This document shows positions 21,229-44,565 of a stretch of 46,993 bases of DNA, piece by piece. Each line of letters begins with the position of its first letter. Positions within the stretch are counted from its first letter, which is position 1. The translations under genes and the position numbers were made by a program. This DNA is from Chloroflexota bacterium (GTDB lineage Bacteria; Chloroflexota; Dehalococcoidia; Lucifugimonadales; VXLM01): NCBI GenBank assembly GCA_026713145.1, contig JAPOPA010000121.1, forward strand, positions 1 to 46,993, read 5' to 3'. Below the pieces are notes generated by a model. That model did not search any database. It was not told where the DNA came from and was given only the letters and a program-made list of their open reading frames with translations.

Positions 21229-21972
21229 CTACCGCTTTGGGATGTTCAGGCTAGGCGTCGGACTCTCATCCGAATCGCCGGCGATCATGCCCTCTAGGAG
21301 CTCTACGACGCCGTCGATGGTCTTCTCTGTTAGTTGGCGCCCCTTGTCGGCGGTGGCGGCGGAGGCGCCTTCGTCCTCGGAGTGGGAGATGTCCTCGACT
21401 CGCACGTTCTCAGGGAAGAGGTGCATTGCCATGGACGTCTCAAACTCGCGGGCGTGGCTCGGGTAGCCAGGCTTGGACTGGATGGAGTTGACGATCTCGT
21501 GGGTCAGCACGTCCCAGTAGTTGTGGAACCGCAGATCGATGTCGCCGTGCTCGCGTTCGAAGAACATCTGCCACTGGCTCATCACGCCGTAGATCGGACG
21601 GCGGTTGCCCCCGTGCCCGTTGAGGATGAGGACCTTGCGGATGCCGTGTCGCATCAGCGTCTCCACGGTGTCGAAGACCACGGCGAGCCAAGTGCTCGGC
21701 TTGACCGTCAGGGTGCCGACGGAGTGCATGTGGTGCTCGGCGATACCCACGTTGATGGGGACGGCCAGGACGACCTGTGGGTAGAGGCGCTCGGCGGCCA
21801 TCTCGGCGACGCGGGAACTGCTCGCGATGTCCTGCTCGAAGGCGAGGTGTTCGAGGTGCTGCTCGATGCTCCCTGTCGCCACGACGGCGACGTCGAACTT
21901 ACCCTCCTCGCGGGCCAGCCGGAATTCGCGCCGCGTGAATTTTTGTAAACGGAACTCGTTGGGAAGGGCCAT
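21229..21972 (-). CDS. Creatininase-family metal-dependent amidohydrolase
   Basis: 247 residues. The metal ligands of the family are visible: Glu37 and His39 in TGSIEQHLEHLAFEQD (with Asp48), NGHGGN near residue 120, and HAREFETS. The family includes creatinine amidohydrolase, 2-amino-5-formylamino-6-ribosylaminopyrimidinone formamide hydrolase and MftE. There is no mycofactocin or riboflavin context here, so an amide-hydrolysing catabolic role is the safer statement. GGAGGAG precedes the ATG. It is the first gene of the minus-strand run including the C26-like pseudoenzyme. Confidence 0.86.
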   Translation of the reverse strand: MALPNEFRLQKFTRREFRLAREEGKFDVAVVATGSIEQHLEHLAFEQDIASSSRVAEMAAERLYPQVVLAVPINVGIAEHHMHSVGTLTVKPSTWLAVVFDTVETLMRHGIRKVLILNGHGGNRRPIYGVMSQWQMFFEREHGDIDLRFHNYWDVLTHEIVNSIQSKPGYPSHAREFETSMAMHLFPENVRVEDISHSEDEGASAATADKGRQLTEKTIDGVVELLEGMIAGDSDESPTPSLNIPKR

Positions 21973-22046: not shown

Positions 22047-23423
22047 TCAAAGATTGTTGTCCAGTTTCTTGAGCTCGGCTTCAACTTTGTCTCTGTCGTG
22101 CCCAAGTTCAAGGGCCCTGTTGAGGTCTGAACGCGCATTCGACGCGTCGCCGAGCGATGAGTGGGCTAAGCCTCTGCCGAAGTATGCGGAGGGATCGTTC
22201 TCATCGAGACGGATGGCGGAGGCGTGATCTTCAATAGCCCTACCGTATTCGCCCTGCATGTAGTAAGCGAACCCCCGGTCAACGTACGTTTGCGGGTATT
22301 CGGGAGAATTGTCGATGGCGGAACTGTAGTCTTGAATTGCTTTGTCATATTCGCCCTGCATGTAGTAGGCGTTCCCCCGGTACCTATAGCCAGCAGTGTA
22401 ATCGGGAGATTTGTCGATTGCGGTGCTGTAGTCTTGAATTGCTTTATCATATTCGCCGATGTCGTAGTAGGCCCTGCCCCGGTTCCTATAGGCAACGTTG
22501 TACGGACGGATTGCGATTGCCTTGCCGTAGTCCTGAATGGCTCTCTCGTATTCGCCCTTTAGATAGTAGACACTCCCACGATTTCCGTACGCCCATCGGA
22601 AGTTGGGATTGAGGCTTATCGCCTTGTCAAAGTCCCGTAGCGCCTTGTCGTACTCCTCCGTCTCAATGAAAGCGGAGCCTCGAGAGTTATGGGCACTAAC
22701 CGAGTTAGGATCGAGGCGTATAGCAGCGTCCAAGTCGCGAATGGCAATGTCCAGCTCGCCGCTCTGGTAGTGCACGAATGAGCGACTGATAAGAGTCTCC
22801 GGATTGCCCGGGGCAAGTTCAATCACGGAGTTCAGATCCTGAAGACGCTTGTCGAATTCATGCAAACCGTTATATGCATACGCACGCTCAAGAAGTGCAT
22901 CCACGTCCTGGGAGTCGCGGCCGATTGACTCGGTGAGATGCTTGACTGCCGTGTCGTACTCCCGCACGGCCCTGTCCCTCTGCATCCAAAAGTCGTAGGC
23001 CTCTCCTCGACCAATGTAGGCGCTCGCGTTGGACGGATCGAGGTCGATGGCCTTTGTGAAGTCTGCAACCGCCTGTTCAAGTAAGCCTTCGTCTCCGCCG
23101 GCAGGGCCACTGTATGCATACAGGGACACGTAGGCGACTCCACGCTTGACGTAGGAGTCGACGTTGGTGGAGTCATTTCTGATTTGCTCGCTCAACGTCT
23201 CAATGTTCTTTTCCACCATCGATTCGAATCCGGCGGGATCCATCTCCCCCAGGTCCATGTAACCATCGACGTTTGAGGGCAAGTCTTCGAACGGGTCGGA
23301 GTCAGACGTGGACTTCGGCGCAGGGTCGTCGCCGCACGCGACTAAGACGGCGGCGAGTGCCAGGCTACAGAGCGTCGCTCGTGTCCACGGAGCAAGTATT
23401 TTTGGTAAAGCCAATTTCATCAT
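22047..23423 (-). CDS. TPR-repeat lipoprotein, array member 1
   Basis: 458 residues. The signal peptide ends in a lipobox (LVAC) followed by GDDPAPK. A linker precedes about ten tetratricopeptide repeats, many of the form EYDKAIQDYSTAID, spanning residue ~75 to near the end. TPR solenoids bind proteins or peptides; as a lipoprotein it would face the outside of the cytoplasmic membrane. Last and most diverged of five tandem paralogues on this strand. Its ATG overlaps the stop of the preceding member by four bases (ATGA), so translation is coupled. The tail ARSDLNRALELGHDRDKVEAEL is shared by the whole array. Confidence 0.88.
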   Translation of the reverse strand: MMKLALPKILAPWTRATLCSLALAAVLVACGDDPAPKSTSDSDPFEDLPSNVDGYMDLGEMDPAGFESMVEKNIETLSEQIRNDSTNVDSYVKRGVAYVSLYAYSGPAGGDEGLLEQAVADFTKAIDLDPSNASAYIGRGEAYDFWMQRDRAVREYDTAVKHLTESIGRDSQDVDALLERAYAYNGLHEFDKRLQDLNSVIELAPGNPETLISRSFVHYQSGELDIAIRDLDAAIRLDPNSVSAHNSRGSAFIETEEYDKALRDFDKAISLNPNFRWAYGNRGSVYYLKGEYERAIQDYGKAIAIRPYNVAYRNRGRAYYDIGEYDKAIQDYSTAIDKSPDYTAGYRYRGNAYYMQGEYDKAIQDYSSAIDNSPEYPQTYVDRGFAYYMQGEYGRAIEDHASAIRLDENDPSAYFGRGLAHSSLGDASNARSDLNRALELGHDRDKVEAELKKLDNNL

Positions 23424-24625
23424 CGGTCGTCGTCCAGCTTCTTGAGCTCAGCTTCAACTTCGTCCCGGTTGTATCCCAGTTCAAGGGCCTTGTTGAGGTC
23501 CGACCGCGCCTTCAAGGTGTCACCTAGAGACGAGTGGGCCAGTCCACGTTCAAAGTATATTTGAGGGTTGTTGGGAAGGCGATTGATAGCAAGGTCAAGA
23601 TCCTCAATCGCTCTGTCATATTCGCCTTTCAGGCGGAAGGTGCGTCCTCGATTGGCATAGGCAGCGATGTACGGCTCAATCTCGATTGCTTTGTCAAAGT
23701 CCTCGATGGCCTTGTCGTACTCACCCATTTCACCGTAGACACTTCCTCGATTGCCATACGCCAAACGATATTTCGGGTTCAGACTGATTGCCTTGTCGAG
23801 GTCTTCAATTGCCTTGTCATGTTGCCCGGCACGAGCGTATATGCTACCTCGAGTGTTGTATGAGTGGGCGAAGTTTGGATCGAGAAGAATGACCATGCCG
23901 AAGTCCTCGATCACCTTGTCGTCCTCCCGCTTTGCTAAGTAGGCAGACGCTCGAGCGAAATAGGCGAGCGAATTGCCGGGGTCGAGTCTGATCGCGGCGT
24001 CGAGGTCCTGAATGGCTTTATCGGGTTCACGGGTTAGTGAATAGACCTTCGCTCGATGAATGTATGCCTCAACATCGTTGGAATCGAGATAGATAGATTC
24101 GTTGAGGAGCTCCAGCGCCGTCCGGTAGTCCTCGTCGGCCTTCTCGCGCTCTTCGCCAAGGCCGTAAGCTCTGCCTCGACCGATGTAAGCCTTGACGTTG
24201 CTCGGGTCGAGGTCAATGGCACTCGTGAAGTCATCCACGGCTTGTTCAACAGCGTCTTCGTCCCGGTCAGGTGGCCTGCCGCTATAGACGTAGATGGCCG
24301 TGTAGACGGCTCCTCGCTTCACGTAGGCGTCGACGTTGGCGGAGTCTCTTGCGATCTCGTCACTCAACGTCTCAGCAGCCTTTTCGAACGTTAAGTCGCG
24401 ACCGGCGGGGTCCTCCTCGGCCAGACGCCTGTAGTCGTCAAAGCTAGAGGGCGTGGCCTGCGATAGCAGGGAAGTAGCAGTCGGCGTTGGGTCGTCGCCG
24501 CACGCGGCTAGCACCAATGCGAGTGCCAGGCTACACAGCGCCGCTTGGAGCCACATGGCCGAATTAGCGCACACGCTCCACGGAGCGAGTCTGGTTGGCC
24601 CCCTTTTGCGATAACCGTTAACCAT
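23420..24625 (-). CDS. TPR-repeat lipoprotein, array member 2
   Basis: 401 residues, signal peptide with VLAAC lipobox, then around eight TPRs (e.g. EYDKAIEDFDKAIE). Compared with members 3 and 4, whose start is MLAPWSV, the equivalent ATG here has become AGA, and the gene now starts 12 codons upstream (MVNGYRKRGPTR before LAPWSV). That start overlaps the stop of member 3 by eight bases. It is about 50 residues shorter than members 1, 4 and 5, apparently by loss of one or two repeats near the C-terminus. Confidence 0.87.
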   Translation of the reverse strand: MVNGYRKRGPTRLAPWSVCANSAMWLQAALCSLALALVLAACGDDPTPTATSLLSQATPSSFDDYRRLAEEDPAGRDLTFEKAAETLSDEIARDSANVDAYVKRGAVYTAIYVYSGRPPDRDEDAVEQAVDDFTSAIDLDPSNVKAYIGRGRAYGLGEEREKADEDYRTALELLNESIYLDSNDVEAYIHRAKVYSLTREPDKAIQDLDAAIRLDPGNSLAYFARASAYLAKREDDKVIEDFGMVILLDPNFAHSYNTRGSIYARAGQHDKAIEDLDKAISLNPKYRLAYGNRGSVYGEMGEYDKAIEDFDKAIEIEPYIAAYANRGRTFRLKGEYDRAIEDLDLAINRLPNNPQIYFERGLAHSSLGDTLKARSDLNKALELGYNRDEVEAELKKLDDDR

Positions 24626-25904
24626 TCTCTTCCAGTTTCTTGAGCTCGGCGAACGCGGCCTCTATTTCGTCCTTGTCGTACCCCAACTCGTGGGCCTTGT
24701 TGAAGTCCGACTGCGCCTTCAGCATATTCCCCTGCAACAAGTGGGCCCAACCCCGGCTGTAGTACGAATAGGCATTGTTATCGTCGAGGCCGATGGCGGT
24801 GTCGTAGTCTTCGATCGCCTTATTGTATTCACTCTTCATGTAGTAGGCGTACCCTCGGTCAACGTACGTCTGAGCGTGACCAGAATAGCTGCTGATGGCA
24901 TCATCAAAGTCCTCAATCGCTCTGCCGTATTCGCCTTTGAAAGAGTAGGCACGCCCTCTACCTGAATATGCAGCGGGGTACGGACGGATTTGGATGGCCT
25001 TATCAAAGTCCCGTATAGCCTTGTCGTATTCACCCATCTCGTTGTAGATATTTCCACGATTGCCTTACGCCCACCGAAAATTCGGACTCAGACTCATGAC
25101 TTTGTCGTAGTCTTGGAGGGCCTTGTCTAGTTCGCCTATTACGCGATACATGCCAGCTCGGTTGTTATAGGCGTGAACATGGTCTGGATCGAGAAGGATG
25201 GCCTTGTCATAATCTTCGATCGCCTTGCCATACTCGCCTTTCAGTGAATAGGAACGTGCGCGGGCGTAATGTATGTCGGGGTTGTCAGGATCGAGTTCAA
25301 GCGCAACATTGTAGTCTCGGATCGCATTCTCGTACTCCTCTTTGATCCTATAAACACTCGCCCGGTCTACGTACGCATCAACGTCTTTGGAATCGAGACC
25401 GATGGCTCGATTGAGGAGTTGAAGCGCCATGTCATAATCCTGGTTCGCTTGATCCGTCTGATTCCAACGATCGTAAGTCTCGCCTCGACCTATGTATGCG
25501 TCCACGTTGGCAGGATCAAGGTCGATGGCCTTAGCGAAGTCCTCAATCGGCTTTTCAAGTAAGCTCTCGTCACTGCCTCCACCACCACTATGATAGTGCT
25601 TGAGTGCGTAGGCGACTCCACGCTTCACGTAGAGATCGGCGTTGTTGGGGTCACGCTTAATGTCCACGCTCAACGCCTCAACAGCTTCTTCGACCATCGA
25701 CTCGCGTCCGGCGGGGTTCTCCTCGGCTAGACGGCCGTACTTTTCGAAGGTGGAGGGGAAGTCTTGCGACGGCGTGGCAACAAGCTCGGGTGTCGGCGCA
25801 GGGTCGTCGCCGCACGCGGCTAGCACCAATGCGAGTGCCAGGCTACACAGCGCCGCTCGCAACCACATGACCGAATCAGCGCACACACTCCACGGAGCTA
25901 GCAT
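24618..25904 (-). pseudogene. TPR-repeat lipoprotein, array member 3, interrupted by an in-frame stop
   Basis: Two frames in the same register make one gene. The 5' part (25065-25904, 279 residues) has the MLAPWSVCADSV signal peptide with LAAC lipobox and about six TPRs, and ends at FRWA. The 3' part (24618-25037) continues with MGEYDKAIRDFDKAIQ and three to four TPRs. Between them the paralogues read FRWAYGNRG, with TAC for Tyr; here the codon is TAA (25067-25065). One base change explains the break. The truncated lipoprotein may still be made, and the ATG at 25037 could restart translation without a signal peptide. A sequencing error is possible. Confidence 0.82.
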
Positions 25905-25929
25905 TGTTGGCCCCTCTATACGGTATCCG

Positions 25930-27270
25930 TCAACCGTTGTCTTCCAGTTTCTTGAGCTCGGCGAGCGCGGCCTCTATTTCGTCGATGTCGTACCCCAACT
26001 CAAGGGCCTTGTTGAAGTCTGTTCGCGCCTTCGACTCGTCGCCAAGTGACAAATTTGCCCAACCCCGGCTGTAGTGCGGATAGGCATCGTTCTCATCGAG
26101 ACTGATGGCGGCATCGTAGTCTTCGATCGCCTTATTGTATTCGCTGCTCATGTAGTAGGCGTCTCCTCGGTCAACGTAAGTTTGACGGTGACTGGGGTTG
26201 CGACTGATGGCAGTACTATAGTCGTCGATCGCCCTGTCATACTCACCTTTGTTGAAATAGGCCGCCGCTCGGCCCCTATAGGCAACAGTGTATGGACGGA
26301 TCGCGATGGCCCCGTCAAAGTCTTGAATGGCCCTGTCGTATTCCCCCAACGAAATGTAGACATCTCCTCGATTGCCGTACGCCCACCGAAAATTCGAATT
26401 CAGACGTATGACCGTTTCGTAGTCTGCAATTGCCTTGTCATATTCGTCCGCAAGAACATGCATAAACCCTCGCATGTTGTAAGCATGAACATGGTTTGGA
26501 TCGAGAAGGATGACCATGTCATAGTCTTCGATAGACTTGCCGTCCTCGCCCTTCTGTGCGTAGGCGTGTCCACGGATGTAAAAGGCTTCAGGGTTATCAG
26601 GGGCCAGCCTGATTGCTGCGTCGAGATCCTGGATTGCTTTATCAGGGTCACTCCTGAACCTATAGGCTTTCGCTCTAGCGATGTAAGTCTCCGCATCGTT
26701 GGAATTGGTGCCGATAGCTTCGCTGAGGAGTTGGATCGCCGTGTCGTACTCTTGTCTCGCTCTATCCAACTGCTTCCAACGATAGAAGGCATCCCCTCGA
26801 CCTATGTATGCGTTCGCGTTCGACGGATCGAGGTCGATGGCTTTCGCGAAGTCTGCCATCGCTTGTTCAATAAAGCCTTCGTCACTGTCCGGCCAACTGT
26901 AGTAGTACATGGCCGTGTATGCGACTCCTCGCCTCACGTAGGCGTCGACGTTCGTGGAGTCTCCCAGTATGTACTCGTTCAAAGTCTCAACAGCGTTTTC
27001 GATCATCGCCTCACGACCGGTGGGGTCCAGCTCGGCCAGGATAGTGTACTCAAAGGAGGTGGAGGGCAAGTCTCGCCAGAGTTGGGAAGCAGCGGTATGA
27101 GTAGCGGCTGCGGGTACCGGCGTGGCAGGCGCAGGAGTCGGAGGCAGGGGCTCGGGTGTCGGCGCAGGGTCGTCGCCACAGGCGGCTAGCACCAAGGCGA
27201 GCGCCAGGCTACACAGCGCCGCACTAAGCCATATGACCGAACTAGCGAACACGCTCCACGGAGCTAGCAT
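25930..27270 (-). CDS. TPR-repeat lipoprotein, array member 4
   Basis: 446 residues from the ATG at 27270 (GAGGGG seven bases upstream). The frame is open to 27480 but the extra N-terminus is out-of-family. The signal peptide ends in LAAC (Cys31); a Pro/Thr-rich linker (PTPEPLPPTPAPATPVP) then leads to about ten TPRs. The 25-bp spacer ahead of it (GGATACCGTATAGAGGGGCC) is the same as the one before member 3, showing that the duplicated unit was gene plus spacer. Confidence 0.9.
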   Translation of the reverse strand: MLAPWSVFASSVIWLSAALCSLALALVLAACGDDPAPTPEPLPPTPAPATPVPAAATHTAASQLWRDLPSTSFEYTILAELDPTGREAMIENAVETLNEYILGDSTNVDAYVRRGVAYTAMYYYSWPDSDEGFIEQAMADFAKAIDLDPSNANAYIGRGDAFYRWKQLDRARQEYDTAIQLLSEAIGTNSNDAETYIARAKAYRFRSDPDKAIQDLDAAIRLAPDNPEAFYIRGHAYAQKGEDGKSIEDYDMVILLDPNHVHAYNMRGFMHVLADEYDKAIADYETVIRLNSNFRWAYGNRGDVYISLGEYDRAIQDFDGAIAIRPYTVAYRGRAAAYFNKGEYDRAIDDYSTAISRNPSHRQTYVDRGDAYYMSSEYNKAIEDYDAAISLDENDAYPHYSRGWANLSLGDESKARTDFNKALELGYDIDEIEAALAELKKLEDNG

Positions 27271-27295
27271 TGTTGGCCCCTCTATACGGTATCCG

Positions 27296-28642
27296 TCATC
27301 CGTTCTCTTCCAGGCTCTTAACGGCGGCGAGCGCGTTTGCGATTTCGTTGCTGTCGTGCCCAAGGTCAAGGGCCTCGTTGAAGTCCCCCCGGGCCTTCGA
27401 CATATTTCCCTGTAACAAGTGGGCCCAACCCCGGCTGTAGTATGAATAGGCATTGTACTCGTCGAGTCCGATGGCGGCATTGTAGTCTTCTATTGCCCTG
27501 TCGTATTCATCCTTCATGAAGTAGGCATCCCCGCGGTCAACGAAAGTTTGAGGGTGATCAGGGAAACGGTCGATTGCGACATCATAGTCTTGAATCGCTT
27601 TGTCGTATTCTCCAATGCCGTGGTAGGCGTTCCCGCGATTTCTGTAGGCAACGCTATACGGACGAATTGAGATTGCCCTGCTGTAGTCTTGAATTGCGCT
27701 GTCATAGTCGCCCATTATGTGGTGAAGATTCCCACGATTGCCGTACGCCCAACGGAAGTTGGGATTGAGACCTATCGCCTTGTCAAAGTCACGTAGTGCC
27801 TTTTCGTGCTCTCCCACATCGATGTAATGGGACCCTCGCGCGTTGTAGGCAGTAACTGAGTAAGGATCGAAGCGTATGGTCGTGTCCAGGTCCCGAATGG
27901 CGGCGTCGATGTCGCCTTTCCACGAGTGTGCCAACGAGCGGCTGATGAGAGTCCAGGGATTGCCGGGGTCAAGTTCAATCGCGGCATCCAGGTCCTGGAT
28001 GACCTCGTCATACTCATCCATGCCACTATAGGCGTACGCCCGTTTGGCAAGTGCATCCGCGTTTCGGGAATCCCGACTCAGTGATTCGTCGATAAGTTTG
28101 ATTGCCGCCTCGTAGTCTTGGAATGCCTTGTCCATCTGGTTCCACTGGTCGTAGGCCTCTCCTCGACCAATGTAGGCACTCGCGTTGGACGGATCGCGGT
28201 TGATGGCCTTTGTGAAATCTTCAACCGCCTGCTCCAGCAGGCTATCCGCATCGGTCCGCAACACACTTGTGTATGCATACAAGATCACGCGGGCGGCTCC
28301 ACGCTTCACGTAGGCGTCGGGGGCGGAGGCGTCCTTCCCGATAGCCTCGTTCAAGGTCTCAATGTTCTCTTCGATCATCGACTCGAGACCGGCGGCGTCC
28401 TGTTCTACCAGGCGCGCGTAACCGTCTATGGTTGTGGGGAATGCTTGCCAGGGCTGGGAAGCAGGCTCAGGAGTGGCGGTTGGGGTAGCAGGTATGGGGG
28501 TGGCAGAGATGGGAGTGGGTGTTGGAGCCGGGGGCTGGGGCGTCGGTGTGGGGTCGTCGCCACAGGCGGCCAGCAAGGCGGCGAGGGCGAGGGAAGCCAG
28601 AGTTGCTGTGATGCCGAAGGCCTGTCCTAAGGCGAGTTGCAT
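27296..28642 (-). CDS. TPR-repeat lipoprotein, array member 5 (first in transcription order)
   Basis: 448 residues. Signal peptide MQLALGQAFGITATLASLAL ending in LAAC, then a long Pro/Thr linker (TPTPQPPAPTPTP and more, to residue ~65), then about ten TPRs ending in the shared tail ARGDFNEALDLGHDSNEIANAL. It begins nine bases after the stop of the unknown gene at 28652-29317, so that gene may head the operon. The ribosome site is weak. Confidence 0.9.
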   Translation of the reverse strand: MQLALGQAFGITATLASLALAALLAACGDDPTPTPQPPAPTPTPISATPIPATPTATPEPASQPWQAFPTTIDGYARLVEQDAAGLESMIEENIETLNEAIGKDASAPDAYVKRGAARVILYAYTSVLRTDADSLLEQAVEDFTKAINRDPSNASAYIGRGEAYDQWNQMDKAFQDYEAAIKLIDESLSRDSRNADALAKRAYAYSGMDEYDEVIQDLDAAIELDPGNPWTLISRSLAHSWKGDIDAAIRDLDTTIRFDPYSVTAYNARGSHYIDVGEHEKALRDFDKAIGLNPNFRWAYGNRGNLHHIMGDYDSAIQDYSRAISIRPYSVAYRNRGNAYHGIGEYDKAIQDYDVAIDRFPDHPQTFVDRGDAYFMKDEYDRAIEDYNAAIGLDEYNAYSYYSRGWAHLLQGNMSKARGDFNEALDLGHDSNEIANALAAVKSLEENG

Positions 28643-28651
28643 GGCTCGTAC

Positions 28652-29317
28652 TCAGGTTTTCTGACCCTGAAGGCGAGGGAGGGTAAAATTCACGTAGTTG
28701 TACTCGTCCAAGGCTTTGGCAAGAGTGTGTCTGCAACCTGTCAAGGACGCGATCGCGGTCTCGCGAGAATGACTTTCGTCTTGCTCCATGACCTCACAGA
28801 CGACTTGGTTGGCAAGGCTTTGCATCTTTCTGAGGAAGTCTGTGTACAAGATGTACTTGCCGCAACCGTACTTCTCAATTATGGCCGTATCCCACATGAC
28901 ATAGAGATCAGGATTAATGATGTGCAGGATCTTGGAAGGGCCGACCACCGCACTACCCCCCCCAGACTCCTTCAAAGTAGCGAAGCAACGCTTTATGAGG
29001 AACCTAGCGCTGTTGCCATCTATTCTTTCATCGAGGCATACATCCAATATCGTCTTGCCGCGTAGTTTCTCCAAATCGGGCTCAATCTTGATGAGGGAGC
29101 TATGGATATCTTCAAAACTTGCTCTCATGCGCGCGTTCCAGCCGTTCGCGAAACTCAGGAGAATCCAGGCTTCCTCGTGGCTTGGTCTGTCCGGGCTATC
29201 CCCTTTGCGACGCCTCGTGAATGCATCACGGTAGCAAGCTAAAGCCGTGGCGTAATCGATTCCGTAGCCATATGAATGGTACTTCTCGCAGGCCTTGCGA
29301 ATTGCCTGGTATAACAT
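28652..29317 (-). CDS. Conserved-looking protein of unknown function
   Basis: 221 residues from the ATG at 29317, with GGGAGGG upstream. The reading frame stays open to 29992, but that extension is antisense or off-frame sequence of the PhyH gene plus an intergenic repeat. No signal peptide or membrane segment. It has a basic N-terminal half (YRDAFTRRRKGDSPDRPSHEE), then LRGKTILDVCLDE and a striking block GPSKILHIINPDLYVMWDTAI followed by KYILYTDFLRKM. I do not recognise the family. Base composition is less GC-rich than its neighbours, which hints at transfer. Nine bases separate it from the TPR array. Confidence 0.65.
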   Translation of the reverse strand: MLYQAIRKACEKYHSYGYGIDYATALACYRDAFTRRRKGDSPDRPSHEEAWILLSFANGWNARMRASFEDIHSSLIKIEPDLEKLRGKTILDVCLDERIDGNSARFLIKRCFATLKESGGGSAVVGPSKILHIINPDLYVMWDTAIIEKYGCGKYILYTDFLRKMQSLANQVVCEVMEQDESHSRETAIASLTGCRHTLAKALDEYNYVNFTLPRLQGQKT

Positions 29318-29382
29318 TCTATTCACCCTCCCGATGTCGAGCTTGCGGGATGCCGCAGTCGGTCCGCTGGCGGGCTTTCTGG

Positions 29383-29402
29383 ATTCCGGCCTTCGCCGGA
29401 AT
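29383..29402. repeat. Short palindromic repeat (ATTCCGGC CTTC GCCGGAAT)
   Basis: Perfect 8-bp stem with a CTTC loop, embedded in CTGGATTCCGGCCTTCGCCG and followed by ATGACGG. This is the pattern of a very widespread bacterial intergenic repeat. It sits in the 125-bp gap between the PhyH and unknown genes. Confidence 0.7.
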
Positions 29403-29442
29403 GACGGTGTGGTTTCCCTATGCGGAGTGGTCGAGCCACCCC

Positions 29443-30282
29443 CTACTCGATGCCCTCGGGGATGCCGTATTGGCGTTCTAGGCGGTTGCCGGGCATGGGC
29501 CAGCCCTGGCCGCCGATGACATTGAACTTGTCGTGGCGGCCGCTGAGCCAGAGGAACATCTCGGCTGCGTCGAAGGAGTCGCGGAACTGCTGGCGGAACG
29601 ACGGGGCCTCGGTGATCCGCCAGTCGAAGTCGGTGATGTCGAAGTCGGGGTTGTGCTTCCACGCCGGGCCGGGCTGCGTGGTGCGAAAGTAGTTGTACTT
29701 GAGGTTGTGCCTCACGCCGCTGCCGGTCGACTTGCCGCGACGGTGCCAGATGTTGTAGGCGGTGATGACGATGGAACCGGCCGGGCACTCGGCGTACTTC
29801 GCGCCGTCGATACTGCCGTAGTGTCCCATCAGTGTGGACTGGGAGAACAGGTGGTGGGAGCCGGGAAGCACTTCCGTCGGGCCCATCTCGGCCGGGGTGT
29901 CCTGCGGATAGTAGAAGACCTGGAGGTAGTTGACCTGCGGCCCCCACTTGGAGCCGCCGTCGCGGTGCCACTCCTGCGCGGGCTGGGGACACTCGACCTT
30001 GTGGCTGCTCATGAGGATGGGCAGGCCGAAGTCCCTTCCCAGCAGGCAGCGGACGGCGCCCGCCGCATCCGGCTGGCAGATGACGTTCTCGACGAACCAG
30101 TCCTCATTGAGAATGTGGCTCGGCTCGTAGTCGACCGGGCCGGGGTTCGTCTCGATGAACTCGATTGTCCGCTCGTTGATCTCCTCCGAGACGACGCCGG
30201 GGAAAAGCAGGTAGCCGTTCTTGCAGAAATCGATGACGCCGAACTCGTCGAGGCTTGGGGGGCAGTCGTATATGCGTGACAT
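29443..30282 (-). CDS. Phytanoyl-CoA dioxygenase (PhyH)-family oxygenase
   Basis: 279 residues. Fe(II) ligands are visible as HRD in AQEWHRDGGSKWG and a distal His in AYNIWHRRGKS, with Arg in GVRHNLKYNYF as the likely 2-oxoglutarate ligand. The N-terminus FCKNGYLLFPGVVSEE is typical of PhyH proteins. It hydroxylates a small molecule; PhyH genes are multiplied in SAR202-type Chloroflexota and their substrates are mostly unknown. GGGAGG precedes the ATG. The gene starts four bases after the stop of the upstream small gene, so they form an operon. Confidence 0.87.
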   Translation of the reverse strand: MSRIYDCPPSLDEFGVIDFCKNGYLLFPGVVSEEINERTIEFIETNPGPVDYEPSHILNEDWFVENVICQPDAAGAVRCLLGRDFGLPILMSSHKVECPQPAQEWHRDGGSKWGPQVNYLQVFYYPQDTPAEMGPTEVLPGSHHLFSQSTLMGHYGSIDGAKYAECPAGSIVITAYNIWHRRGKSTGSGVRHNLKYNYFRTTQPGPAWKHNPDFDITDFDWRITEAPSFRQQFRDSFDAAEMFLWLSGRHDKFNVIGGQGWPMPGNRLERQYGIPEGIE

Positions 30283-33927: not shown

Positions 33928-34001
33928 TGCCCGGTGGTGTAGTGGTAGCACGAAGGACTTTGAATCCTCAGACCCAGGTTCGAATCCTGGCCGGGCAGCC
34001 A
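33928..34001 (+). tRNA. tRNA-Gln (anticodon TTG), with encoded CCA
   Basis: Acceptor arms TGCCCGG (33928-33934) and CCGGGCA (33991-33997) pair fully, then G and CCA. The D arm (GTAGTGGTAGCAC), an anticodon loop CTTTGAA with TTG at 34-36, and the T arm CCAGG-TTCGAAT-CCTGG are all present. An integrase gene follows 115 bp downstream, so its 3' end is the likely attachment site. Confidence 0.96.
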
Positions 34002-34064
34002 TCCTACCCTTTAGAGGCGACCGATGCTTCGCCTTTTATATGTGAAAAGGTGTCCTTAGCCGTC

Positions 34065-34113
34065 TTGTAGCGTCCATGGCTGTGTGGTACAATCCGGTGT
34101 ACCACGTGGTACA
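34065..34113 (+). promoter_or_regulatory. Integrase promoter with palindromic operator
   Basis: TTGTAG (34065-34070), a 17-bp spacer and an extended -10 TGGTACAAT (34085-34093 region) form a good sigma-70 promoter. Immediately downstream is the perfect 16-bp palindrome TGTACCACGTGGTACA (34098-34113). The half-site GTGGTACA recurs at 34084-34091, exactly 22 bp (two turns) from the one in the palindrome. A repressor binding here would cover the transcription start. Confidence 0.6.
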
Positions 34114-34118
34114 GGGTG

Positions 34119-35303
34119 ATGGACATGCCTTTGACGGCGATGCAGGTTGAGAAAGCGAAACCTGGCCCCAAAACGCGGCGATTGCTGGACGAACGCGGCC
34201 TCTATCTGGTAGTCCGAACGACGGGCTCGAGGTCGTGGGTACAGCGCATCACGATTGACGGAGTCCGGACCGACATCGGGCTCGGTGGGTACCCTGACGT
34301 GCGGCTTCCTCGGGCGCGAAAGAGGAGCGCGGAGATACGAGAAGCAGTCGCCGATGGACGGGACCCACGGGTGGAGCGCCGTCAACCTAACCTCCCGACG
34401 TTCCGAGACGTGGCCGAGCAGTATATCTCGAAAAACGCTGTCCGTTGGAAGAACCCCAAGGAGTCCGTCAACTGGCGAGGGTGTCTAAATACCTACGCCT
34501 ACCCGGCATTTGGCAACACGCGGATTGACGGCATCACTCGCCGCGAGGTGTTGGACGTACTGCTGAAGATATGGTTTACCAAGCCTTCTATGGCACGGAA
34601 GCTGCGCCGACGAATTAGGGTGATTTTCGAGGCTGCCATAGCACTCGACGAGAAGTTTAACAGCAACCCCGCAGGGAAAGCGCTTGACGTCGTCCTTCCC
34701 GAGACGCCAGCAGTCAAGGCCCACTTCCGGGCACTGCCCTATCAGGACGTACCCGACACACTGGAGAAGATAGAAGCGTCGACCGCATCCCTATCTTCGA
34801 GGCTATGCTTCCGATTCCTGGTGCTGACGGCAGCACGGTCCGGTGAGGCGCGGGGCGCTCGGTGGGATGAGATTGACCTTGACTCCCGGAGGTGGACCAT
34901 CCCGGGTTCGCGCATGAAGGCTGGGCGCGAGCACCGGGTCCCGCTCTCGGATGCGGCCCTTGAAGTGGTGCGCCGTGCGAAAGCCCTAGACGAGAATTCC
35001 GGGTTAGTCTTCCCATCCCCGCTCAAGCCGGGGCGCGAGTTGTCCGACATGACCTTGACCAAGTTACTGCGGAACCTTGGCCTTGCGGACCGCGCGACCG
35101 TCCACGGATTTCGCACCGGCTTCAAGACGTGGTGCATGGAGACGGAGGGCATTGACTGGGATGTGGGAGAGGCGGCGTTGGCTCACACGCTCGGCAACTC
35201 GACCCAGGCGGCCTACGCCCGCTCCGACCTTTTCGAGAAGCGCCGGACGCTCATGGAGAGATGGGGGAGCTTTGCTGCGGATAGCTGCCTACAGGTAGAT
35301 TGA
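34119..35303 (+). CDS. int: P4-type tyrosine integrase
   Basis: About 394 residues. The N-terminal ~85 residues (LTAMQVEKAKPGPKTRRLLDERGLYLVV, IGLGGYPDVRLPRARKRS) are the DUF4102 arm-binding domain of P4-like integrases. A core-binding domain follows (TFRDVAEQYI...), then the catalytic domain with Arg in TAARSGEARG, HGFR in VHGFRTGFKTW, His in LAHTLGN, and nucleophile Tyr in AAYARSDLFEKR. The set is complete, so the enzyme should be active. It catalyses site-specific integration and excision, here presumably at tRNA-Gln. A GTG at 34116 is an alternative start. A strong terminator follows. Confidence 0.93.
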   Translation: MDMPLTAMQVEKAKPGPKTRRLLDERGLYLVVRTTGSRSWVQRITIDGVRTDIGLGGYPDVRLPRARKRSAEIREAVADGRDPRVERRQPNLPTFRDVAEQYISKNAVRWKNPKESVNWRGCLNTYAYPAFGNTRIDGITRREVLDVLLKIWFTKPSMARKLRRRIRVIFEAAIALDEKFNSNPAGKALDVVLPETPAVKAHFRALPYQDVPDTLEKIEASTASLSSRLCFRFLVLTAARSGEARGARWDEIDLDSRRWTIPGSRMKAGREHRVPLSDAALEVVRRAKALDENSGLVFPSPLKPGRELSDMTLTKLLRNLGLADRATVHGFRTGFKTWCMETEGIDWDVGEAALAHTLGNSTQAAYARSDLFEKRRTLMERWGSFAADSCLQVD

Positions 35304-35420
35304 CTCCCGGACGGGTTGCTTGGTAGACTAAAACTGTCCCGCCGAAAAGTCGAGGTTGGGGTAGTCGAGACTTCGACGGACCGCAACCTCCCCGAATTAG
35401 GCCTCTTGGCCTCTTTAGAG

Positions 35421-35466
35421 ACGGCCATGCAGAAAAGGTACATTCTGCATGGCCGTTTGTCTTTTT
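35421..35466 (+). terminator. Rho-independent terminator after the integrase
   Basis: Perfect 14-bp stem ACGGCCATGCAGAA / TTCTGCATGGCCGT with an 8-nt loop, then TTGTCTTTTT. It insulates int from the alpA-primase genes. Confidence 0.92.
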
Positions 35467-35539
35467 CCTTCCCGATGGCCCGCTAGGAAACGGCTCATGC
35501 TGGACTCAGCGGGCCTTTTGAATTACAGGGAGGTAAAGG

Positions 35540-35755
35540 TTGACCACTACACAGAAGAACGAACTCCTGACGTGCGACGAAGTTCTGGACATACTCAAGT
35601 GTGCCCGTTCCACCTTGTACGTTTTGATGGAAACTCAGGGATTTCCTCGCCCCATTAAATTCGGCACGGCGAACCGCTGGTTCAAGACTGAGGTCGACGC
35701 TTGGCTAGACCGCCAGGCAGCCGTCCGGAGCCACAGACTAACGTCCACTCGCTAA
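35540..35755 (+). CDS. AlpA-like helix-turn-helix regulator / excisionase
   Basis: 71 residues starting at TTG with AGGGAGG upstream. A winged MerR-type HTH is visible: LLTCDEVLDILKCARSTLYVLM, then GFPRPIKFGTANRWFKTEVDAWLDRQ. AlpA/excisionase proteins regulate integrase genes or direct excision in P4-like elements. Its place between int and the primase fits that role. Confidence 0.85.
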   Translation: MTTTQKNELLTCDEVLDILKCARSTLYVLMETQGFPRPIKFGTANRWFKTEVDAWLDRQAAVRSHRLTSTR

Positions 35756-36021
35756 ACCGCGCGGCCGAGGCCTCGGTTCGGTCGGCGCTGGCCGCCATCG
35801 ACGCCATCGATCGCGACGTGTGGATTTAGGTGGGCTTCGCCGTCTACTCCGGGTCGGGCAGGGGTACCAACTCTGTTGGCTCTTCGAGGGAGGGACTTGG
35901 CCCCTCACGAACGACGACGAACGCTTGACGCGAAATCCACGCTCGGCGACTGCCTTGACATTCGGTTCGCGGCGAATCCCCGAAGACCGAGTTGTAGGCG
36001 ATGTCTAAGGAGGATAGAAAC

Positions 36022-38973
36022 ATGGCACAGACATTTGAGGACTGGATCGACGCCCTGAACCTCAAGCCGCGCGGAAATAAGGCTGAGGCGCCCTGCCCGC
36101 TGTGCGGGGGAGACGACCGCTTCCGTGTCACTCGCGGCGATACGGTCCCCGTCTTACTCGCCTGCCGTTCTTGCCTTGACCTCCTGCAGGGAGAGGCGCG
36201 GGCCAAGCGCATCAAAGAGATCACCCGCGCCGTCTTCGGCGAAGCTGATACCCCGTCTGTCCGTTCCAGCAACGGCGTGCATCCCGCGAAGCCGGGAATC
36301 CAGATCGCGGACGCGGACACGCTCGACCGAGCCTACCGGATAGTCCTCGACCGGCTCACGCTCTCACAGCGCCACCGGGAGGACCTCCGCCGTCGTGGGC
36401 TGTCGGAGTCCTACACCCAACTCGCGCAGTACCGCACCCTCCCCGAAGGGCACGGGGACGCCATCGCGGGTGCATTGCTCGACGAACTCGGTGAGGATGC
36501 GCGGAAAGTCCCCGGCGTACATCCCGTAGAGCGCCGGTTCATCGCCTACCCCGGCCTCATCATTCCCGTCCGCGACGCACGGACTCGTATCGTCGCTCTG
36601 CGTGTCCGGAAAGATGAGGGCGATCCACGATACTCCTTCGTCTCCTCCGCCTCAGTCGAGCCGGGACCTGGGCCGGGAGCGCCCGCCCATGTGCCCGTGA
36701 TAAGACCCACGCCGGCGAAGAGGAAGAACTTGACACCCGGAGATGTGGTCGAGTACCACTCCACAGTCCGCGTCACCGAAGGGGAACTCAAGGCAGACGT
36801 TGCGACCGCCCTCAGCATCGAGCGCGAGGAACCCTCCTTGCTCACCATTGGGCTCAACGGCCCTTCGGCATTCGAGGCGGCGGTCCCAGCACTCAAGGCC
36901 CTGGAGACAGAGACGGTTATCGTCGCCCTTGACAGCGACGCGAGGGAGAAGCGTCCCGTCGCCGCAGCGCTCCGGCGCACCGTCGACGGCCTCCGCGAAT
37001 CCGAGTTCGCCGTAGAACTGGAGACTTGGGCGGGTGGCAGGGATGGTGCCAAGGGTATAGACGACGCCATCCTCGCGAAAGTCGAGATCACCAGGCATTC
37101 GGACGACACGGAAGACGGCCAGGTAGATGCGGAAGTTAAAAACATCGACAAGGTAGCGAAGCTAGCTCAACCGACACTGGAAGAGAAGCGGGAGGCCGAC
37201 GCACTGAAAACGCTCAAAGACGCCGTCCACTCCGATGACCGCGGCGAATGGAAAGAGCAGGCGGCGCAGGCGGCGCTCAGGCGGATCGTTCAGAGTGATG
37301 CGGCCCTCGAAAGGGCGCGGGCTATCGTCGAGGGCAGCCCGGTCAGCAACCGCGAGTTCGAGCGGAACGTGAAAGCGTTTAGGGGCGAAAGCGAAGAGAG
37401 GGCGGGGCAAGAGACTATGAGGTTTGAGGGACAGTATTATCACGATGTTGCGAAGGTCATTGGCAATCTCTCAAGGGCGGGACGTCTTATAGGCACAACG
37501 GACGGCATCGCCTACTACCATGTCGAGGAGACGGGAGAGCTTCTCCGCATCACAGGCACAGCGAAGCAACGTGACCTGGTCAGGCCGTTCTTGACCCTCT
37601 TGCACGATGAGTACGGGATCATTAGCAACCAGCCCATATGCCCTGCTCTGCTCGACACGCTGGACATTATGGCGATGCGTCCGCCCCTTTTTGAGATAAA
37701 GACCATCACAAAGCTCGACAGACCTAATCGGACGATGTACCTCGATATGGGCAATCATTCGGTCCTCAAAGTCTCGCGGACGGAGATTCGCGCAGGTCGG
37801 CAAGGCATGGACGACGTGTTCTTCGAGGAGAGCAAAATGTATGCTCCATGGGAGTATGTCGTCGCAACCGATGGCCTCGACGACCTCGACCGGCTTTCCA
37901 TGTGGTTCACTGAGGGAATGCAGATCGACGAGGAACTGCAGGGCATTCCGCGAGAATGCGCCCAGGTTATGTTCCTGACATACGTGCTCTCCCTGTTCTT
38001 CCACGACCTTCTGCGAACAAAGCCCATTGCGCTCACCGTCGGGCCATACAATTCCGGCAAAACTGAGACTTTCCTTAGAGTCCTACAGACCATCCTCGGC
38101 CCGGAGATGGCCGACCACCTCAAGACCGACACACCGAGCACAAGTGAGGCGTTCGACGTAGCTGGGTCGAATTTCGATTACGTCCTGATCGACAACGCTG
38201 ACAAATACGTGGACTGGTTTGCCCAGGCCCTCTCAACTGCCGCGACGGGCAAGGCGCGCATCGACCGGACGAAATACTCGGACAACGACGTAAGCACATT
38301 CCTCTCGCGGGCGTTCGTGATGATTAGCTCGCGGACCCCCTGGTTCCGGCAAGACGACGTAGCCTCCCGGTTGCTGATCTGGCATCTCAAGCGGATGCCG
38401 GCCACCGTAGGCGTCGATGAACAGGACCGATACGACGAGGTACTGCCGCGACGGAACGAGCTGATGTCTGCCGTCGCCAGAGTCATCCAGCGCGTTTTGC
38501 AGGGTCCCGACTACGAAAGCCTCGACGTGAAGCACGAGTCGCGCCTGCGGAACTGGATACGCCTGGCGACGTGGATCGGAGAAAGCTACGAACCCATCTT
38601 CCGTGACAGCTTGAACATGGCAATCGAGAACATCGTCCCACTCTTCCAGCAATTTACCTCGGAGGACTCCGACCTGCCCGAGCTCATCTCTGAATGGCTC
38701 ACCCAGTCGCCGTCTGGGTACTTGGAAGGGAAGGCGACGAACGAATACCGGGTGGTGACCACCGGCGAGCTTCGGAAGGAACTGGGCAACATCGCAAAGG
38801 ACAACAACGTGAAATTCCGGTGGAACACCATCAAGAGCTTCGGCCAGTACATGAACCAGCAGGAGGAATCGTTGAAGCTGCGGTTCCAGGTCCGCACAAA
38901 GGCTGACGGGTCTCAATTGAAGCCGCACGGAGAAAGCGGTACGCAGTGGAATTTCTCAAGAAAACCGGATTGA
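36022..38973 (+). CDS. Primase-helicase of an integrative element (zinc finger, toprim, AAA+ ATPase)
   Basis: 983 residues from the ATG at 36022; AAGGAGG eight bases upstream overlaps the earlier ATG at 36001, which is therefore less likely. An N-terminal primase zinc finger (CPLCGGDDRF near residue 26, then CRSC) is followed by a toprim-like region (EGELKADVATAL at ~253, VIVALDSDA at ~310). The C-terminal half is a helicase-type ATPase with Walker A GPYNSGKT at ~674 and Walker B VLIDNAD at ~720, then Arg-rich sensor segments (SRAFVMISSRTPWF). P4 alpha protein joins the same activities and starts replication at an iteron origin. Iteron-like repeats lie directly after this gene. Confidence 0.87.
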   Translation: MAQTFEDWIDALNLKPRGNKAEAPCPLCGGDDRFRVTRGDTVPVLLACRSCLDLLQGEARAKRIKEITRAVFGEADTPSVRSSNGVHPAKPGIQIADADTLDRAYRIVLDRLTLSQRHREDLRRRGLSESYTQLAQYRTLPEGHGDAIAGALLDELGEDARKVPGVHPVERRFIAYPGLIIPVRDARTRIVALRVRKDEGDPRYSFVSSASVEPGPGPGAPAHVPVIRPTPAKRKNLTPGDVVEYHSTVRVTEGELKADVATALSIEREEPSLLTIGLNGPSAFEAAVPALKALETETVIVALDSDAREKRPVAAALRRTVDGLRESEFAVELETWAGGRDGAKGIDDAILAKVEITRHSDDTEDGQVDAEVKNIDKVAKLAQPTLEEKREADALKTLKDAVHSDDRGEWKEQAAQAALRRIVQSDAALERARAIVEGSPVSNREFERNVKAFRGESEERAGQETMRFEGQYYHDVAKVIGNLSRAGRLIGTTDGIAYYHVEETGELLRITGTAKQRDLVRPFLTLLHDEYGIISNQPICPALLDTLDIMAMRPPLFEIKTITKLDRPNRTMYLDMGNHSVLKVSRTEIRAGRQGMDDVFFEESKMYAPWEYVVATDGLDDLDRLSMWFTEGMQIDEELQGIPRECAQVMFLTYVLSLFFHDLLRTKPIALTVGPYNSGKTETFLRVLQTILGPEMADHLKTDTPSTSEAFDVAGSNFDYVLIDNADKYVDWFAQALSTAATGKARIDRTKYSDNDVSTFLSRAFVMISSRTPWFRQDDVASRLLIWHLKRMPATVGVDEQDRYDEVLPRRNELMSAVARVIQRVLQGPDYESLDVKHESRLRNWIRLATWIGESYEPIFRDSLNMAIENIVPLFQQFTSEDSDLPELISEWLTQSPSGYLEGKATNEYRVVTTGELRKELGNIAKDNNVKFRWNTIKSFGQYMNQQEESLKLRFQVRTKADGSQLKPHGESGTQWNFSRKPD

Positions 38974-38990
38974 CGGGAAAAGAGTTTTTC

Positions 38991-39191
38991 ATCTGTCAGT
39001 CTGAAAAATGGGCCTGCAATCTCGTCGGAGCGCCTTTGCCATGCGGCTAGTGCAAACTGACAGATGCCTGCCAGATACCTGACAGATGGAGGGGTGAGAA
39101 ATTGGCAACCTGACAGAAGAATTCGATCTGTCAGTCTTCTGTCAGTGTAGGCGAATCGTAGCTGGAAAAGAGGAAAACTGACGGATGACAG
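38991..39191. repeat. Iteron-like array of CTGACAG / CTGTCAG: candidate replication origin
   Basis: CTGACAG occurs at 39057, 39079 and 39110, with a CTGCCAG variant at 39068; the inverse CTGTCAG occurs at 38993, 39128 and 39139; relaxed copies lie at 39178 (CTGACGG) and 39185 (ATGACAG). The units at 39057, 39068 and 39079 are spaced exactly 11 bp, as are 39128 and 39139, one helical turn. Most continue into AGATG or AGAAG. The array is noncoding and begins 18 bp after the primase-helicase stop, the classic position for an iteron origin or an autoregulatory site. The rest of the gap to 39532 holds no gene I can support. Confidence 0.68.
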
Positions 39192-39532
39192 AAGAAAAGA
39201 AGTTTCCTGAGAATGTTGGTCTGTTGGGTGAGCCTGTAGAGAGTAATTGAGACTGGCGACATGCGGGGTATCGGGTGGGGTCGCATCTACAGAAATGCGG
39301 TTCCTGCGGGATACACCACAATGCACCAGAACCGTGAGACCAAAGAACGTAATGAGACGAGGAACTGCATGAGCTCCCCCGGACCTGCAGCGACCTGAAC
39401 GCCGCCGAGTCCGGGTGTCGGACGCGGCGGGCCTATCGTCGCCTTCGTCGGTAGGCGGACATCGCCTACACCCTGTGAACGGCTGCTCATGTGACGAAGG
39501 GCAGGTCTAGGGTTGTAACCTAGGTGAGACTG

Positions 39533-39829
39533 TCATGAGCGGATGTGCCGCTTCTGCTGCGCCAAGCGAGCTAGCATCTCCGGTGTCAACGTCGTGGGCC
39601 TGGGCTTAGGCCGATCACCCTTGGGAAGACGTGCCACTTTGTCGCGGACGATCTCAGCTAAGGGCGGGAGCGCGTCGTCCTGTGTGACATTCCGATGAGT
39701 TTTGCCGGAGACAACACCATGGACGCAGGACCGACTCAACCCGAAAGCCTCGGCCAGAGAGACCACGCTGTAGCCGTTGTTGTGGTAGCGCCGCAGTTGT
39801 CGATCGGTGTCCGGATGGAGCTTTGCCAT
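39533..39829 (-). CDS. Small helix-turn-helix DNA-binding protein
   Basis: 98 residues, AGGAGG upstream of the ATG. Residues ~8-45 (TDRQLRRYHNNGYSVVSLAEAFGLSRSCVHGVVSGKTHRNV) form a resolvase/homeodomain-type HTH, here with a recognition helix SRSCVHGVVSG. The tail is basic and Pro-rich. Probably an element-encoded regulator; it points away from hsdM and towards the iteron array. Confidence 0.7.
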   Translation of the reverse strand: MAKLHPDTDRQLRRYHNNGYSVVSLAEAFGLSRSCVHGVVSGKTHRNVTQDDALPPLAEIVRDKVARLPKGDRPKPRPTTLTPEMLARLAQQKRHIRS

Positions 39830-39947
39830 AGCGTCCTCCTGTTGTACTCCTGCACGTAGGCTAGTCTGTCTTCAATGGCAGCTTGTCGGAGTCCGCTAGA
39901 TACAAATGCTGGCCCTTTAGAGAGATGAGGAGCGGAAACCCCGGATA

Positions 39948-40265
39948 TTATATATTAAGGGACTGAGAATTAGGCCCATTCGTGTGCGCATCGGCAGGGG
40001 GCGCCTGGTCTAGGTCGAGTGCCACCCTCTTGGCCTCGGCTCCACGCGGTGACCCCTCCTCGACTATGTTCAATATCCACGGGATGAAGAGGAAGTAGCG
40101 GGCCCTTGTCTGAATCGTGCTGGTACCGGGGAAGAGGGTGTCAGCAATCGTGTCGCGGATGGTGCCGATTCCCAGCTCGTCGAGCGTCCCGGGCTCGTTC
40201 AACGCCGACACAAGCTCCATGACTGAGCGGCGTTCGTGTTCGCTGCTGTCCAGCCAGCTTAGAGA
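39948..40265 (-). pseudogene. N-terminal fragment of a DUF6361-family gene
   Basis: The frame reads SLSWLDSSEHERRSVMELVSAL, then EPGTLDELGIGTIRDTIADTLFPGTSTIQTRARYFLFIPWILN, which is the conserved start of DUF6361 proteins (normally some 400 residues). Upstream the frame is closed by TGA at 40268-40266 with no start codon for the first residues. Downstream, similarity ends after about 75 codons, and the tail (QAPPADAHTNGPNSQSLNI) is unrelated. A start at the internal ATG (40220) could give a 90-residue product. It is best read as debris left at the edge of the defence cargo. Confidence 0.7.
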
Positions 40266-40298
40266 TCATCTCAAAATTATATGCGTTGGCAGAGAAAT

Positions 40299-40325
40299 GC
40301 CCTTCGACAGGCTCAGGGCGAACGT
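40299..40325. repeat. Widespread intergenic repeat (CCTTCGACAGGCTCAGGGCG)
   Basis: Imperfect hairpin GCCCT (40299-40303) with AGGGC (40315-40319), in a sequence seen in intergenic DNA of many bacterial genomes. It lies between the DUF6361 fragment and hsdM. The remainder of 40266-40554 holds no gene. Confidence 0.6.
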
Positions 40326-40554
40326 GTTTCAGTTGAGTATTTGCGTGGAGAAAACTCGCGGAAGTGCATTTTGAGATAGTTTCTTAGTGTTGAGGTGGAC
40401 ACCATAGACTTGGTACGTGCACCTTGTGACGGGCGTTGAGCAACCCCATGCAACGGGGGCACTGATTATCCCAGTGCGAACGTCGATACGCAATGTCAGG
40501 TCTTGTAGGTGGCAGCGTGATAGAGTTAGCCTATTCGCGGGAGGGATGTGGAGC

Positions 40555-42669: not shown

Positions 42670-42711
42670 GGCAGCCCTTGAAGCAACCGTAGCTTGGAGA
42701 AAAGGTAGCCT

Positions 42712-43098
42712 ATGCCTATCAACATATTCGTAAGTTTCGAGTTCGACAGGGACAATGACCTACGGAACAACTTCTACCGGCAGGCCGAAGAAGAAACCGA
42801 ACATCGGATTCGCGACTGTTCTCTCCATGAGTCTTACCCGGACGAATACTGGAAGAACAAAGCCAGGAACGCTATACGCCCATGCGATGTCGTAGTCGTC
42901 CTGATCGGCGAAGACACCCACAACGCTCAGGGCGTTATGGTGGAGACGGACATGGCCCGTAGCTTTGGTAAGCCCATCATCCAGGTCAGGCCACAGGGTA
43001 GGCCGTACCAGGGGCTGACCCGTCTCGGAGATCCGATCACATGGCGATGGAGCCGCATCAACGCCGTGCTGGATGAGATAGCGTCCGGGAGCCGATAA
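42712..43098 (+). CDS. TIR-like domain protein (DUF1863/ThsB-like), defence cassette gene 1
   Basis: 128 residues, a single TIR-like domain. It opens with the fold's first strand (INIFVSFEFDRDND), continues with CDVVVVLIGEDTHNAQGVMVETDMARSFGKPIIQVRP, and carries a Glu in the helix after the fourth strand where catalytic TIRs have theirs. The layout resembles ThsB of Thoeris, whose TIR makes a NAD-derived signal upon phage infection. AAAAGG lies upstream of the ATG. It is followed closely by a membrane protein and a second, different TIR protein, all on one strand, between hsdM and an hsdS fragment. Enzyme activity is inferred, not shown. Confidence 0.78.
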   Translation: MPINIFVSFEFDRDNDLRNNFYRQAEEETEHRIRDCSLHESYPDEYWKNKARNAIRPCDVVVVLIGEDTHNAQGVMVETDMARSFGKPIIQVRPQGRPYQGLTRLGDPITWRWSRINAVLDEIASGSR

Positions 43099-43134
43099 GC
43101 GAATTCCGACGACTGTTTGCAAGGGAGGTACGAA

Positions 43135-43572: not shown

Positions 43573-43607
43573 GCGTAGTTATGTCCATGAACATGGGGAG
43601 GATGTCC

Positions 43608-44213: not shown

Positions 44214-44217
44214 CGAC

Positions 44218-44283: not shown

Positions 44284-44342
44284 CACGCGGGGACACTGCT
44301 ATACTGGCCATTGGAGCCAGAGACCGAAAGCGAGGTGACCTC

Positions 44343-44558: not shown

Positions 44559-44565
44559 CAGGCGC

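Follow-up and report, generated by a model that had tools for sequence, protein, structure and literature searches.

The 46,993-nucleotide contig analysed here, called the window below, is contig G000:C101 of a Chloroflexota genome (G000, 3.46 Mb in 398 contigs), which by its gene content may be SAR202-like. Between positions 22047 and 28642 it carries five paralogous genes for lipoproteins with tetratricopeptide repeats (TPRs), in tandem and all on the minus strand, designated A to E in order of transcription. Sequence comparison within the genus indicates that at least three types of TPR body in this array predate the species split and that segments have been exchanged between copies; repeat number also changes inside the genes. 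The original prediction, made from the letters of the window, had attributed the array to recent expansion by unequal crossing-over, with repeat number changing between copies. Segment exchange and the change in repeat number were recovered, whereas a recent expansion of whole units was not. The members, their two flanks and the corresponding genes of two related genomes are as follows.

27296-28642, minus strand: member A, 9 TPRs in an a-type body that follows a lipoprotein leader and a long Pro/Thr linker, with an 'internal' tail; the body has orthologues in G003 and G001
25930-27270, minus strand: member B, Pro/Thr linker, b-type body with 9 TPRs; leader resembling those of C and D
24618-25904, minus strand: member C, frame of 9-TPR length broken by one nonsense codon
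23420-24625, minus strand: member D, d-type body with 8 TPRs, one below its orthologues; start moved upstream over the C stop
22047-23423, minus strand: member E, 10 TPRs, joining an a-type body to a d-type tail; start overlapping the D stop (ATGA)
21229-21972, minus strand: creatininase-family gene (PF02633), downstream flank, syntenic in G001 and G003
29443-30282, minus strand: PhyH-family dioxygenase gene (PF05721), upstream flank, syntenic in G001 and G003
G003, L029 13532-12201: 3b, b-type
G003, L029 12175-10817: 3a, a-type
G003, L029 10793-9519: 3d, d-type
G001, L030 10148-8790: 1a, a-type body
G001, L030 8765-7488: 1d, d-type

Four genomes of the genus, G000 to G003, were compared. The arrays of G003 and G001 sit between the same creatininase and PhyH genes as in G000, and the matching locus holds five members in G000, three in G003, two in G001 and none in G002; that these sizes come from metagenome-type assemblies is a point against building on them. 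Presence, size and order of the members therefore vary within one genus. The invariant array across relatives that would have argued against the original prediction was not found, and the comparison of array size among close genomes that it had proposed did reveal differences.

Each member consists, in order, of a leader ending in L-A/V-A-C-G-D-D-P, a linker, a TPR domain (the body) and a helical tail. Three body types (a, b and d) are common to more than one species. The orthologues are 80% (A-3a), 78% (A-1a), 64% (B-3b), 66% (D-3d) and 68% (D-1d) identical in amino acids; seven flanking genes are 85-95% identical in the same comparisons. The synonymous divergence (dS) between paralogues within G000 ranges from 0.70 (B-C) to 1.37 (A-D), and that of the flanking genes between G000 and G001 or G003 from 0.31 to 0.81. 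In eight of the ten paralogue pairs dS lies above every flank value, the exceptions being B-C and A-E (0.79). Because paralogue dS exceeds flank dS and body types cross species, the bodies of the array are old. The duplications behind A-E and B-C may be younger, since their dS stays within the flank range.

A recent tandem expansion of one gene in this lineage, by unequal crossing-over of whole units, would accord with the duplicated spacers and leaders, with the dS of these two pairs and with the fewer copies in other genomes. It is nevertheless very unlikely and, as far as the bodies are concerned, already largely refuted: those of A, B and D have orthologues in other species, most paralogue pairs lie beyond all flanks in dS, and forcing all five G000 bodies together lowered the log-likelihood (lnL) by 348 and was rejected by the approximately unbiased (AU) test (p-AU 0.0002). 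Only parts of the array look recent, namely the homogenised junction and leader block, the loss of a TPR in D, the gain of one in E and the stop codon in C. The ratio of nonsynonymous to synonymous divergence (dN/dS) between orthologues is 0.24-0.34 in the array versus 0.05-0.15 in the seven flanking genes, and spans 0.22-0.38 across all 45 pairs of array members. These values indicate relaxed or diversifying change in the array orthologues, with fast divergence under weakened purifying selection.

The trees of successive codon segments (leader, body and tail) conflict. In the body tree, E groups with A, 3a and 1a at 100/100, and D with 3d and 1d at 100/100; constraining E to D, 3d and 1d costs 76 log units and is rejected. 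In the tail tree, E groups with D, 3d and 1d at 98/96, and its placement with A, 3a and 1a is rejected (p-AU 0.006). The leader tree rejects a grouping of B with 3b (p-AU 0.0014) and disfavours one of 1a with 3a and A (p-AU 0.023). A four-gamete test similar to the pairwise homoplasy index (PHI) detected clustered compatibility, both with ten rows (p 0.001) and with the five G000 rows (p 0.008). Maximum-chi breakpoints for B, for D and in two of the C tests fall at codon columns 40-52, around the lipobox (columns 42-47); that for the first gene of G001 falls at column 68, in the linker, and those for E at columns 454-458. Of the 13 triplets run, one, in which A was tested against 3a and E, was without a breakpoint (p 0.23). 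Identical stretches also occur between otherwise diverged copies: junctions A|B and B|C have 45 identical bases in common, and C and D are identical over 57 nucleotides of their leaders despite bodies that differ (67% nucleotide identity, dS 1.05).

25801-25857, minus strand: 57-nt leader stretch of C over the lipobox codons, identical to D 24489-24545
24489-24545, minus strand: 57-nt leader stretch of D, identical to C 25801-25857

The first gene of G001 carries a b-type leader on an a-type body. Its PhyH end, spacer and leader follow the first (b-type) gene of G003, and its body follows the second (a-type) gene. It is the product expected of an unequal crossing-over that removed one gene, if the two arrays are read in that direction, which cannot be told.

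Several results weigh against exchange as the full account. The grouping of the D leader with 3d and 1d is not rejected (p-AU 0.097), and the leader clade of B, C, D and E has a support of 85/94, below what the tree tool counts as shown. Member C also has breakpoints inside the body, at columns 362 (p 0.003) and 414 (weak, p 0.02). In only one of eight pairs tested (C-D, Fisher p 0.005) do codons for conserved residues show significantly less change in the leader than in the body, so part of the likeness of the leaders may reflect constraint at the protein level.

The segment exchange that these comparisons show is homologous and occurs mainly directly behind the lipobox, within the linker and close to the tail. 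It spreads leaders and junctions among the copies, produces chimeras such as E and the first gene of G001, and alters copy number; unequal crossing-over is the proposed route. A more far-reaching version is speculative and rather improbable: the conserved junction and leader blocks would be recombination tracts with fixed positions (first-gene leader, internal leaders and last-gene tail), TPR bodies would move among these positions, and both the pairing of domain with leader and the number made would be reshuffled within the species. Shuffling of bodies within populations, if it takes place, would make the array a new system of variation in a lineage without cultured members. The array offers a clear bacterial case in which leader, binding body and tail of one tandem lipoprotein family have separate histories, and similar spacers and leaders can make such an old array appear freshly duplicated.

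In most members, a spacer of 23-25 nucleotides includes both a start codon and a G-rich stretch that resembles a ribosome-binding site. The GGATACCGTATAGAGGGGCC spacer is identical ahead of B and of C, inside the 45-nt exact repeat, so that spacers are duplicated as had been claimed.

27271-27295, minus strand: spacer A|B, 25 nt, with the G-rich ribosome-binding-like stretch AGAGGGGCC, in the 45-nt exact repeat with spacer B|C
25905-25929, minus strand: spacer B|C, 25 nt, core sequence same as in spacer A|B

Starts that overlap the preceding stop, also pointed out previously, are found in D (8 nt over the C stop) and E (4 nt over the D stop). D has an altered codon where the start usually lies, E has lost both the G-stretch and the usual start codon, and each uses an upstream ATG instead. 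The start codons of D and E thus moved upstream after the usual start was lost, which makes the C|D and D|E overlaps look derived. These overlaps could allow translational coupling.

The repetition of the array is well beyond chance, with five-copy families of 200-300 nucleotides at 62-77% identity. Much of the architecture described in the original prediction was retrieved. All five G000 members, read by eye, have a lipobox (LAAC or LVAC) followed by GDDP, as lipoproteins should; in two members of the relatives the lipobox departs from the usual pattern (PAAC in the middle member of G003, FVAC in the second of G001). The CGDDP junction is indeed present in the five members, but it occurs at nine places in the G000 genome, four of them elsewhere, and hence is not specific to the array. 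A Pro/Thr-rich linker exists in some members, being long in A and B only and short in C, D and E. The claim of a single common tail did not hold, as there are two kinds of tail.

The range of 8-10 TPRs per member was found as predicted, with nine in A, B and C, eight in D and ten in E. Four members were scanned for the TPR family PF00515 (gathering cut-off 27.8 bits), and A scored 197, B 193, D 173 and E 205 bits. An AlphaFold2 model of B, based on an alignment of nine members, comprises nine TPRs, an additional hairpin at the N-terminus and a cap helix, with a mean pLDDT of 87.4. Its closest solved folds are the TPR domain of O-GlcNAc transferase and consensus TPR superhelices (Foldseek E-value 1.5e-15, TM-score 0.53 of the query); the likeness is one of fold, a generic match, and the array lacks a catalytic domain. 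D has exactly one 34-residue repeat fewer than A, B, C and its own orthologues. E has one additional 34-residue repeat, which stems from an in-frame duplication of 102 nucleotides.

22296-22499, minus strand: two adjacent 102-nt copies in E, one TPR each, 80% identical, an in-frame TPR duplication

Member C is interrupted by a TAA codon that the original prediction had overlooked. The reading frame is otherwise intact on both sides, and the product up to this codon would have 279 residues and about five TPRs. Either a recent nonsense mutation has reduced C to a five-TPR lipoprotein, or the codon is an error of sequencing or assembly.

25065-25067, minus strand: in-frame TAA in C, codon 280, a Tyr codon in the nine other members of G000, G001 and G003

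Taken as a whole, the best explanation, which we consider probable, is that the array is an operon-like set of TPR-solenoid lipoproteins, whose most likely role is that of a small repertoire of extracytoplasmic binding proteins. Each product would be exported and lipid-anchored outside the cytoplasm, and the superhelix of 8-10 repeats would be presented as a groove for binding proteins or peptides. The products are probably extracytoplasmic binding scaffolds with diverging specificity. A scan for promoters and terminators detected three promoter-like and two terminator-like sites versus 3.9 and 8.1 in shuffled sequences; with no excess of either, it leaves the operon question undecided.

The suggestion that the array encodes a surface-exposed, variable binding family is plausible. 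Changes at the seven concave TPR positions defined by Magliery and Regan (PMC1261162) were compared with those at other exposed positions. Concave changes are in excess among five pairs of G000 paralogues (170/276 vs 289/585, p 0.002), and in the three orthologue pairs pooled (66/167 vs 107/354, p 0.02), where D-3d drives the excess (30/51 vs 35/108, p 0.0005). On the other side, no concave excess was present in A-3a (12/58 vs 26/123), B-3b (24/58 vs 46/123), 3a-1a (6/58 vs 10/123) or 3d-1d (1/58 vs 10/123), and gene-wide positive selection was not seen, as dN/dS nowhere exceeds 1 among the 45 member pairs. Positive selection on the concave faces, the test that had been proposed, consequently gave a mixed result across pairs. 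Since variable concave positions are general in TPRs, as stated in a passage of PMC1261162, the excess provides weak support.

As a special case of this explanation, the members may be eukaryote-like repeat proteins by which the bacterium contacts an animal host, for instance a sponge. This is possible, though doubtful, and a host-contact role for the array is suggested, not shown. Ankyrin matches number 13, 35 and 28 in the three array-bearing genomes and 0 in the genome without the array, and a leucine-rich repeat (LRR) lipoprotein with a Pro/Thr linker is encoded elsewhere in G000; yet four genomes make a single contrast, which is confounded with genome size (3.2-3.8 vs 2.1 Mb). Among the features of sponge Chloroflexi that a section of PMC6306507 discusses are TPR, ankyrin (ANK) and LRR proteins, the last of these in Caldilineae and SAR202 genomes. 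The array resembles such proteins, postulated in that section to serve host contact, in being made of repeats and in occurring in genomes with ankyrin matches; it differs in that its members are predicted anchored lipoproteins in one operon-like array.

Alternatively, the members could be housekeeping lipoproteins of envelope assembly (NlpI, PilW/Tgl or GltE-like) that serve as scaffolds for wall or appendage enzymes of the cell itself and were duplicated without a role in variation. TPR lipoproteins of this shape are common, and like NlpI, PilW/Tgl, GltE and PrsT the array members are predicted to be lipid-anchored TPR scaffolds. The NCBIfam models of such families do match, but far under their cut-offs. 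For A, B, D and E, respectively, NlpI (NF008391, cut-off 250) scored 75, 71, 68 and 94 bits, PilW (TIGR02521, cut-off 154) 91, 89, 100 and 109, PrsT (TIGR02917, cut-off 312) 134, 105, 75 and 111, and MamA (NF040959, cut-off 200) 119, 117, 118 and 125; GltE and Tgl (NF033758 and NF033762, cut-off 225 each) scored 41-78 and 52-89 bits. NlpI, PilW/Tgl, GltE and PrsT are not known to form tandem arrays. Moreover, no envelope-assembly gene adjoins the array, its size varies, and one of the four genomes of the genus does without it, so that a housekeeping function is unlikely.

Decay of the array by drift, in which constraint is weak, a nonsense codon arises and both starts and copies are lost, would fit the stop in C, the start shifts in D and E and a dN/dS higher than in the flanks, but is hardly probable, for the full open frame is kept in nine of ten members in three genomes, the TPR core is conserved (48/279 core changes vs 107/354 elsewhere in three orthologue pairs) and dN/dS is far below 1.

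Tandem clusters of paralogous lipoproteins are already known, and the organisation of the array appears closest to that of the lpl cluster of Staphylococcus aureus vSa-alpha, whose variable and conserved segments are thought, in the part of PMC4470592 that deals with them, to permit gene shuffling and tandem duplication. Both consist of tandem paralogous lipoprotein genes in one orientation, and the array likewise has adjacent same-strand paralogues in numbers that vary between genomes (5, 3 and 2). The protein families are unrelated, lpl proteins being without TPRs: among the matches listed, Pfam gave TPR and unrelated weak families only (all 23 families for D; the best 25 of 27, 27 and 28 for A, B and E). 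The conserved block of lpl, as described in the same part, is intragenic, with varying 5' and 3' parts, whereas in the array it is the body that varies, between a conserved leader and a conserved junction. An island or host role is not shown for the array. No paper on this array was found in open-licence PMC text.

In G002, no array member was detected (nearest TPR match 2.7e-34), and the homologues of PhyH and creatininase (76 and 75% identical) lie on separate contigs, beside other genes. Outside the genus, with at most eight candidates scored per genome, 22 of the 197 genomes of the order had matches at 1e-50; besides G000, G001 and G003, the best match was 3.4e-66, and these matches were partial. 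Of 276 relatives in a public genome collection, the best 80 were generic TPR proteins of 23-44% identity, a set from which near relatives may be left out. A genome from another family of the order (G069, L155 735-12333) has four long near-consensus TPR genes in tandem, without evident lipoprotein signal or signal peptide; tandem TPR genes are therefore not unique to this genus.

About 800 bases (28652-29442) separate PhyH from member A in G000. They include an open frame ending at 28652, without any Pfam, NCBIfam or PADLOC match. G001 and G003 lack these bases at the corresponding position, and there PhyH lies almost directly beside the array. One copy of a dispersed palindrome, GGATTCCNGCNTTCGCNGGAATGAC, lies in this G000-only insertion (29381-29405); it occurs at 42 places in the genome, 14 exact and the others with one mismatch, compared with 0 for the control. 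Beyond the PhyH flank, the region 33928-46993 looks like an integrated defence island. A tRNA-Gln, which G001 and G003 also have beyond this flank, is followed by genes for a tyrosine integrase (34116-35303) and a primase-like protein. The region further encodes a type I methyltransferase (40417-42669), a ThsB-like TIR protein together with its small membrane partner (both within 43117-44213; PADLOC candidate PDC-M50A/B) and, at 45111-46292, a Fic protein. Elsewhere in G000, an orphan frame of 101 residues (L031 5597-5902, contig G000:C355), the last part of which matches the array-family tail (65% to E), adjoins a 937-residue LRR lipoprotein with a Pro/Thr linker and is a probable displaced fragment of the array family. 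In G001, which also has the TPR array, many ankyrin matches are clustered on one strand of contig G001:C108 at about 29-55 kb, likely a tandem array of ankyrin genes.

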